From: Nitrospirota bacterium
GTDB lineage: Bacteria > Nitrospirota > Nitrospiria > SBBL01 > JAADHI01
Assembly: GCA_029261165.1 (NCBI GenBank)
Contig: JAJDBV010000086.1
Coordinates: 1 to 51,521, forward strand
Reading direction: 5' to 3'
Length of the DNA: 51,521 bases
The notes below the pieces were generated by a model. The model was not told the origin of the DNA, searched no databases, and saw only the letters and a program-made list of their open reading frames with translations. Positions 33,684 to 35,929 of this stretch are shown piece after piece. The first letter of the stretch is position 1. Every line of letters begins with the position of its first letter. A program made the translations under genes and the position numbers.

Positions 33684-34811
33684 TCATACAACAAACATGG
33701 CATCACCGTAGCTATAAAATCGGTAACGCTGTGCGATCGCTTCCCGGTATACGGAACGAAGCGCATCTTCTCCGGCAAAGGCGGAGAGCAGAACCAATAA
33801 AGTCGACTTCGGCAGGTGAAAGTTTGTAATCAAGGCATCAATTCCTTTAAAACGGTATCCTGGGGTAATGAAGAGGCCGGTCTCGCCCTCTGTTGCCTGA
33901 ATCCGTCCTTCAGGCTGCGTGACTGTCTCCAGGACGCGCGTTACGGTGGTACCGACAGCAATGATCCTTCCCCCTTTTGCCCGTGTGGCGTTGATCTGTG
34001 AGGCTGTTTCCTCTGAAACTTGAAACCATTCCCGGTGCATCACGTGGTCTTGAATTTTTTCTGAGCGAATTGGCTGAAAGGTGTCGAGGCCGATATGGAG
34101 CGTGACCGTCGCCGTCTGTATCCCTTTCTTCCGGATCGTTTTCAGCAGGGGATCGGTGAAGTGGAGACCCGCAGTGGGTGCTGCAGCGGAGCCCCAGGAC
34201 TTCGCATAGACCGTTTGATACCTCGTCCGGTCTTCAGATTCAAAAGATTGATTCACGAATTCAGAACGATCGCGTTTTTCTACTTTTCTCCTCTTCAGGA
34301 TATAGGGCGGAAGCGGAATCTCTCCCCACTTTTCCAGAAAGGCGTAGACATCCTGATATTGATCTGAGGGAAGGCGAATGACGATCTCATGACGCCCTTC
34401 TCCCAGGTCTTTTAAAAAACGGCCCGTGACATTTGCTTCAAAGAAAAAGTCAGTTGTTTCGCGGCCCCTCCCTTTGACCAGGACCTCCCAGCACTCACTG
34501 AAGATCCCTTTTCGTCGTGGAACCTGATGTGGAAGCGGTCTTAGAAACAGGAATTCCAGTCGACCGCCAGATGCCTTCTTCGCGGTGAGGCGGGCGGGGA
34601 AGACCCGTGTATCATTCAGGACCAGGAGGTCGTGAGGATTGAGGTATTCCGGGAGAGAAGAAAAAGTGCGATGTTCAATCTGTCTCTGATTTCGATGATA
34701 GATCAGGAGCCGACTTTGGTCCCGTTCTACTGGTGGGGCTTCCGCGATGAGGGCCGGGTCGAGGGGGTAGTCATAGGCAGCAACACTCTGAATATTTTTT
34801 ATTGAGATAAT
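33684..34811 (-). CDS. queA: S-adenosylmethionine:tRNA ribosyltransferase-isomerase, non-canonical start
   Basis: QueA makes epoxyqueuosine from preQ1-modified tRNA. The full frame reads through YPLDPALIAEAPP, SRLLIYHRN, LVLNDTRVFPARL, WGSAAAPTAGLHFT and ITNFHLPKSTLL, all family segments, with no internal stop, so it is intact. No ATG, GTG or TTG exists between the in-frame TGA at 34821-34823 and the conserved start. ATT at 34809-34811, seven bases after GAGG, is the best start (375 residues); ATC 34806, ATA 34800 and ATT 34791 are alternatives. The start overlaps the spoIID stop, so translational coupling is likely. Confidence 0.88.
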   Translation of the reverse strand: MISIKNIQSVAAYDYPLDPALIAEAPPVERDQSRLLIYHRNQRQIEHRTFSSLPEYLNPHDLLVLNDTRVFPARLTAKKASGGRLEFLFLRPLPHQVPRRKGIFSECWEVLVKGRGRETTDFFFEANVTGRFLKDLGEGRHEIVIRLPSDQYQDVYAFLEKWGEIPLPPYILKRRKVEKRDRSEFVNQSFESEDRTRYQTVYAKSWGSAAAPTAGLHFTDPLLKTIRKKGIQTATVTLHIGLDTFQPIRSEKIQDHVMHREWFQVSEETASQINATRAKGGRIIAVGTTVTRVLETVTQPEGRIQATEGETGLFITPGYRFKGIDALITNFHLPKSTLLVLLSAFAGEDALRSVYREAIAQRYRFYSYGDAMFVV

Positions 34812-35929
34812 TGTAGTGCCTCATAAGGTTGCAAAGTTACACCAGGGTAATAGTATAGTAATATTTTCTCAAAGTTCAATCCCTTCTCGGCCAGGACTTT
34901 TGTCCCCCACTGGCAGAGACCGACTCCATGTCCATACCCCATTCCTTCAAATTTAAGCTCCTTTCCGAAAGAATCAATCCGGAAATTGGTACTGGGGAGG
35001 ATGCGGTATCCGAGTGCCTGACGAAGATCTTCGGCCTTTAGAATAATCTCTCCCCCATTGTACAAAATCCTGACCGTTAGGAGACGTCCCGCCCGGCTCC
35101 ATTTAAGTGGCGTCAATGTCGCCACCGCACGGACGGGAAATCCCTTTTTGCGAAGGGCGCTTTCGAGATCGGACAGGGTAATCGTCTTCTTCCATTCATG
35201 ATAGGGCGACTCCCTGTCGAGAGGACAGCTCACTCCTTTTAAATAAGGCAGGTCGATATTCCACCTTTCGGCGGCATCCTCAGTCGGGCCTGCTGAAGTC
35301 GAGTGAAAGAAAGTCAGGGCCGGTGCATCCTCATAGCTCAGTATCATGCCTGCGGTCATTTCCACGGCCGAGGATGTGCGGCGATTTTCGACCGATGCGC
35401 CTTTATAGACCTGTGCCAGGATGGATCCGACAAGATCATAATCTCTCCCCCGGTTTTCCCTTTTTTTATAGAGCGCATAGGTTCTGGAGATGACCGCCTG
35501 TACCTTAAGGGCTTCCATCTTCCACTTGGAAGGCATCTCAGAGGGAACCACACCCTTGAGGTAGAGCTCTAGATCGACCTCGTTTAACACAAGAAGTCCA
35601 CCTTTTTTTCTGATGACCCGAAATGTACCCTGGAAAGGGTTTTGGTTAATGGAGATCCTTCCTCCCCGTCGGGGAATAAAAAGAAGTTCTTGTAAGTGGC
35701 TGTCTGCGCGGTTGACGGCAATACCACCCGGAGATAATGAAATCCGGGCGGATTTCATGGGTCGCCCGAGCCGTTTTCCCGAGGGCGTGATGATTGAAAA
35801 CCCTTTATCCGAGGTGAATGCAAGCTGTTTAACCTGATCCATTAATGAAACGCGTAGCGTTTCTTCCGCTTGAAGGGGGTGGGGGGCAGCAAGGAGCGTC
35901 AGCGCAACGATAAAAAGAGACAGGATCAT
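34799..35929 (-). CDS. SpoIID/LytB-domain exported protein
   Basis: The 376-residue protein has a signal peptide (MILSLFIVALTLLAAPHPL) and a SpoIID/LytB domain: VVPSEMPSKWKMEALKVQAV, the RTYALYKK segment, SYEDAPALTFFHSTSAGPTED and GMGYGHGVGLCQWG. SpoIID is a lytic transglycosylase acting on peptidoglycan stripped of stem peptides; outside spore formers such proteins are thought to remodel the wall. Its ATG overlaps the DUF2905 stop (ATGA). Its end overlaps queA. Confidence 0.93.
   Translation of the reverse strand: MILSLFIVALTLLAAPHPLQAEETLRVSLMDQVKQLAFTSDKGFSIITPSGKRLGRPMKSARISLSPGGIAVNRADSHLQELLFIPRRGGRISINQNPFQGTFRVIRKKGGLLVLNEVDLELYLKGVVPSEMPSKWKMEALKVQAVISRTYALYKKRENRGRDYDLVGSILAQVYKGASVENRRTSSAVEMTAGMILSYEDAPALTFFHSTSAGPTEDAAERWNIDLPYLKGVSCPLDRESPYHEWKKTITLSDLESALRKKGFPVRAVATLTPLKWSRAGRLLTVRILYNGGEIILKAEDLRQALGYRILPSTNFRIDSFGKELKFEGMGYGHGVGLCQWGTKVLAEKGLNFEKILLYYYPGVTLQPYEALQLSQ

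Follow-up and report, generated by a model that had tools for sequence, protein, structure and literature searches.

Very few bacterial genes are known, to our knowledge, to start at codons other than AUG, GUG and UUG, and such starts are out of reach for gene callers. Among these genes is pcnB of Escherichia coli, reportedly found by Binns and Masters in 2002 to begin at AUU, a single enzyme gene limited by its start codon in the way that appears to apply to queA, although the two genes are different. The infC gene begins at AUU, AUC or AUA, and autoregulation by IF3 through its AUU and ATC starts is known (accessible part of PMC5472188). Conserved AUA and AUU starts were described for ccpN and cvfC1 of Staphylococcus aureus, respectively, both relying on an extended Shine-Dalgarno (SD) sequence and cvfC1 being the first gene of its operon (accessible part of PMC13009471), while sigR of Streptomyces possesses a lineage-conserved non-standard start that had been missed by annotation (accessible part of PMC5472188). 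Stop-start overlaps working through termination-reinitiation (accessible part of PMC10666635) form a further group of comparable arrangements.

The queA gene studied here, a tRNA-modification gene lying behind a spoIID/lytB-domain gene in a genome from uncultured Nitrospirota-like bacteria, shares part of its features with each of these systems. As in infC, a putative AUH start stands beside an SD-like site, but infC has a strong AAGGAGG, whereas queA displays only GAGG, overlaps the upstream gene and does not encode a translation factor. Like ccpN and cvfC1, queA would use conserved AUA or AUU codons; unlike them, it overlaps the gene ahead of it at the start, and relatives differ in the third base of the codon. 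The sigR start is likewise lineage-conserved and missed by annotation, but it is GTC rather than AUH and its repression by IF3 was shown experimentally. The same -4 nt geometry as in termination-reinitiation overlaps was found in relatives of this genome (ATGA in G008 and family f10, ATAA in family f5), but the proposed queA start is not AUG, GUG or UUG, and the overlap is 13 nt in the window and 22 nt in G009. As read from the aligned junctions, queA has a predicted lineage-conserved non-AUG start that would add a member to a known but small class. No report of a non-AUG queA start was found in the titles and abstract openings of matching open-licence PMC papers, nor, in the same literature, any report of translational coupling between SpoIID and queA, and the accessible part of PMC11497404 held nothing on AUU, AUC or AUA as starts.

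The features of the locus in the window (the whole stretch of 51,521 nucleotides that was analysed) are collected in Table 1.

Table 1. Coordinates of the spoIID-queA junction and of neighbouring features, in positions of the window.
Feature	Position	Strand	Remarks
queA, tRNA preQ1(34) S-adenosylmethionine ribosyltransferase-isomerase	33684..34811	-	375 codons from ATT plus stop; NCBIfam/Pfam models
ATT, proposed queA start codon	34809..34811	-	homologue of ATG (G008, family f10), ATA (f5) and ATC (G009)
ATC, proposed queA codon 2 (Ile)	34806..34808	-	junction alignment; start codon in the rival reading
GAGG, Shine-Dalgarno-like	34819..34822	-	7 nt ahead of ATT, within spoIID
TGA, upstream closure of the queA frame	34821..34823	-	read from sequence
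spoIID/lytB-domain gene, upstream of queA	34799..35929	-	TIGR02669, 232.8 bits; 13 nt overlap with queA counted from ATT
TAA, spoIID stop	34799..34801	-	spoIID three codons longer than in family f5
Internal GTG, earliest standard start in the queA frame	34254..34256	-	opens a truncated ORF of 190 residues

The queA frame was open from the TGA at 34823-34821 to its stop at 33686-33684 (378 codons from stop to stop) and matched the curated NCBIfam models NF001140 (419.7 bits, cut-off 324) and TIGR00113 (365.5 bits, cut-off 267.45) as well as Pfam PF02547, the model alignment beginning at residue 12-13 of the stop-to-stop frame. Behind the TGA, the frame continues with GGC ACT ACA ATT ATC TCA ATA AAA AAT ATT CAG, and no ATG, GTG or TTG was found on the minus strand of the window between this TGA and the GTG at 34256. 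A preliminary description of this DNA had claimed that the TGA is followed by no standard start before the QueA homology, that a GAGG stands seven bases ahead of the ATT inside spoIID, and that standard starts would truncate the gene at an internal GTG; each of these readings was recovered, the ORF at 33684..34256 being all that standard starts leave of queA. No second queA was found in a search of the same genome (G000). The tgt gene was present there (TIGR00430, 525.3 bits, cut-off 306.75), and its presence places the predicted QueA in a queuosine pathway.

Eighteen genomes of the order, G000 included, were searched, and queA was found in 17 of them; it had no match in G010, a genome that retains a spoIID relative. 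In 10 of the 17 queA-bearing genomes the gene stood directly behind spoIID, and eight of these ten spoIID-linked copies had no ATG, GTG or TTG in reach (G000, the six family f5 genomes G011, G013, G014, G015, G016 and G017, and G009 of family f3). The other two belong to family f2: queA of G008 starts with ATG, while the G012 junction is ambiguous, with standard codons only at least 44 nt inside spoIID and an ATT overlapping the spoIID TAG. The spoIID gene of G012 terminates early (..LQHY then TAG) and does not stand in the usual frame relation to queA, which occupies the other frame, leaving as start options the ATT overlapping TAG or an ATGATG about 50 nt inside spoIID. In the remaining seven genomes, which belong to the same family as the window (genera g2 and g3), queA was located elsewhere and had standard starts, and no spoIID match was obtained in any of the seven.

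Placed side by side, the junctions displayed one homologous triplet. It reads ATT in the window, ATC in G009, ATG in G008 and ATA throughout the six f5 genomes, and it is anchored both by the ends of SpoIID (YEEIK*, YKEIK, YEALQ, LEIR*) and by the beginnings of QueA ((M)IS.., (M)VP.., MIE.., MIT..). The preliminary description had proposed the ATT as start codon, and the alignment bears this out in that the ATT is the homologue of an ATG in G008 and six outgroup genomes and of ATA or ATC in seven relatives; initiation at this triplet is predicted. Of the 15 junctions aligned, 14 have Ile as codon 2, the exception being G009 with Val (GTT). All 6/6 junctions of the outgroup family f10 carry an ATG that overlaps the spoIID TGA by 4 nt (ATGA), exactly as in G008, so AUG is taken as ancestral; the ancestral arrangement would have been ATGA, changes of its third base giving AUA, AUU and AUC. 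The step from ATGATC to ATAATC in f5 is a single G-to-A change, which also converts the spoIID stop from TGA to TAA. The window has lost the spoIID stop at the ancestral position, and the gene is extended by three codons; in G009 it is extended by six, and QueA has one codon fewer from its start to the conserved F/Y-D-Y. The order formed one clade in the QueA tree (100/98), with family f2 nested beside G000, G009, g2 and g3 (support 85/84); since f2 includes the ATG of G008, this topology, whose inner branches are not strong, requires a minimum of two switches between AUG and AUH.

The reading favoured here, and considered likely, is that queA is translated from the AUU at 34811-34809, made workable by the SD-like site and by coupling to spoIID, and descended from an AUG ancestor. 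The ancestral start would have been an ordinary AUG that overlapped the stop of spoIID, an arrangement retained by G008 and f10, and its third base would have been lost in several lineages, while the A, the U, the following Ile or Val codon and the frame were kept. The initiator tRNA would pair with the A and U of AUH and mispair at the third base, the SD-like GAGG or AAGGAG at the end of spoIID would make the start workable, and ribosomes fresh from translating spoIID would help queA to start. Low output of QueA and sensitivity to IF3 would be expected; these four elements (initiation at the AUH codon, coupling, low output and IF3 sensitivity) are inferred, and what the comparison shows is the absence of standard starts, the homology and conservation of the codon and the selection acting on QueA. 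No odd initiator tRNA was seen in an ARAGORN scan of 30 of 43 tRNA loci, and the tRNA-Met genes seen have the anticodon CAT. In reporters of S. aureus, AUA and AUU starts gave about 10% of AUG output (accessible part of PMC13009471), and for ATT in E. coli a value of about 0.3% relative to ATG is cited from Hecht et al. (accessible part of PMC10666635), an output that may be too little for queA without coupling.

The SD-like site lies 5-7 nt upstream of the queA start and within spoIID, as GAGG in the window and f5 and as AAGGAG in G009. Duplex energy with an assumed anti-SD was -5.6 kcal/mol for the window GAGG and ranged from -5.6 to -8.2 kcal/mol at the AUH starts, against -2.8 kcal/mol at the ATG of G008, which looks like compensation. 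These spoIID genes contain 577 internal ATN sites, of which 35% attain -5, 26% -6 and 11% -8 kcal/mol; because such energies are common there, the SD alone counts as weak evidence. The anti-SD is assumed: the pattern of the 16S tail was absent from G000 and gave one match in seven other genomes, outside any rRNA-like context. Support for the putative coupling to spoIID is anatomical: the two genes overlap in 8/8 cases (13 nt in the window, 4 nt in f5, 22 nt in G009), and queA has a standard start in each of the seven sister genomes that gave no spoIID match. The f10 genomes combine AUG with this overlap, which means that AUH is not a necessary consequence of coupling. No RNA structure shared at the queA start was found (fold z-scores of -1.73 in the window, 1.07 in G013 and -0.04 in G009).

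Ratios of non-synonymous to synonymous substitution (dN/dS), obtained from 10 pairs among five f5 species, were 0.09-0.20 for the half of QueA ahead of the GTG at 34256 and 0.10-0.23 for the half behind it. Low values in both halves indicate that the complete protein is maintained, and full-length QueA is under purifying selection. The spoIID codons lying over the SD-like site (GAG GAA ATA AAA) were identical at every base in the five f5 species, a degree of identity reached by 3 of 224 four-codon windows of spoIID.

It is possible, if rather doubtful, that the AUH start is real but meaningless, the quality of the codon being unselected since very little QueA is needed. The third base has indeed drifted through A, T and C, QueA is presumably an enzyme needed in small amounts, and SD support at queA is modest. 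However, the protein itself is strongly selected, and every lineage is one substitution away from regaining AUG, a step that in f5 would leave SpoIID unaltered, yet none of the six f5 genomes has AUG. Switches from an ancestral AUG to AUU are also very rare, with 1 in 61,358 in a published reconstruction (accessible part of PMC5622118).

Initiation at the adjoining AUC (34808-34806), i.e., at codon 2 of the frame counted from AUU, is judged improbable. Apart from the window, seven junctions are non-AUG, and codon 2 is AUC or AUU in six of them; the spoIID stop of f5 overlaps it in a -1 arrangement (TAATC or TAATT, of the form TAATN). The codon is GTT in G009, however, and the same Ile codon stands after a true ATG in G008 and f10, so its conservation is explained by its role as residue 2; the spacing from GAGG to AUC would moreover be 10 nt.

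A start codon would not be needed at all if ribosomes shifted to the -1 frame, or the transcript slipped, close to the spoIID terminus and a SpoIID-QueA fusion resulted. QueA does lie in the -1 frame relative to spoIID, and runs of A are present at the junction, with six A following the first base of the spoIID stop in the window (34800-34795) and AAAA-TAA in f5. Against this, no slippery heptamer common to the junctions was seen by eye in their alignment, G009 has a TAA in the queA frame directly before the ATC and no A-run there, and G008 and f10 have an ATG. SpoIID/LytB proteins are normally exported whereas QueA is cytosolic, which also argues against a fusion. The frameshift fusion was rejected as very improbable, on the missing common slippery site and the G009 stop. 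An error of sequencing or assembly confined to this MAG-like genome of 89 contigs (a true G, or a base missing from the A-run) was rejected as a general explanation and has a negligible probability, seven other genomes of the order also being without a standard start at the same codon. The comparison of relatives, proposed in the preliminary description as a check, has in this way removed both alternatives named there, a sequencing error and a frameshift connecting QueA to another start, and the missing AUG in several distant relatives points to a start that would be weak by tolerance or by design.

The infC genes of the order displayed a similar pattern. An ATC behind a purine-rich SD, with no standard start near the N-terminus, was found in 10 of the 18 genomes (G000, the six of f5, G008, G009 and G010), and G012 shares this ATC but also has a TTG directly adjoining the SD. 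In G000 the infC start region (L135, G000:C37, about 45030) reads AAAGGAGG TCTTTT ATC. All seven g2/g3 genomes start infC with ATG, and this branch, in which no spoIID was found, has AUG in both infC and queA. The matching split of infC and queA across genomes suggests a shared sensitivity to IF3; it amounts to a single phylogenetic contrast in the IF3 tree, and the same genomes are those in which spoIID is absent, which confounds it. The two genes do not always go together, as G008 combines AUC in infC with AUG in queA. IF3 control of queA appears plausible from these patterns. The stronger proposal, that both genes are kept deliberately on AUH so that the IF3 level, and with it the growth state, sets tRNA queuosine, and that this arrangement dissolved in g2/g3, is unlikely. 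A pcnB-like gene matched in 18/18 genomes, always below the family cut-off, and in G000 it has an ATG six codons past its upstream stop; its frame, having this ATG, gives no support for a wider IF3 set. A second infC-like gene in G009 (L138, G009:C94:16322-16807, 161.6 bits) may be foreign, given the 8% contamination listed for that assembly.

The rarity of the queA situation was surveyed over 446,521 bases of the genome carrying it (the window and 20 further stretches, 15% of the genome), with an approach that is blind to starts shifted by only a few codons, such as that of infC. Among 382 coding-like ORFs, the coding signal lying upstream of any standard start reached 39.6 bits for queA and 10.0 bits for the next, and only queA stood out as a candidate for a wider set of non-AUG genes in this part of the genome. 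A cruder version of the survey, which kept 163 ORFs, flagged the same two loci, queA and L175. The latter was rejected as a second non-AUG start, being a transglutaminase-like gene interrupted by an in-frame TAA (L175:3956-3958) with the same frame continuing upstream. As a control, a standard start was present within 40 codons in 94 of 96 queA loci outside the order, the other two being cut by contig ends.

Within one order, a single codon would have moved through AUG, AUA, AUU and AUC with its protein still under selection. Nature may here have tested the lower limit of strength for a coupled start, and tRNA queuosine may be connected with IF3. The queA genes of this order are likely mis-annotated as fragments, of 190 residues in the present genome.

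Two further copies of queA differed in their coding sequence. That of G017 (L112/L115) shows a frame break near residues 152-157 and is otherwise near-identical to the G013 copy, the break being probably an assembly error. QueA of G008 (L114/L116) is longer, at 401 residues, with extra residues between query residues of about 99 and 109.
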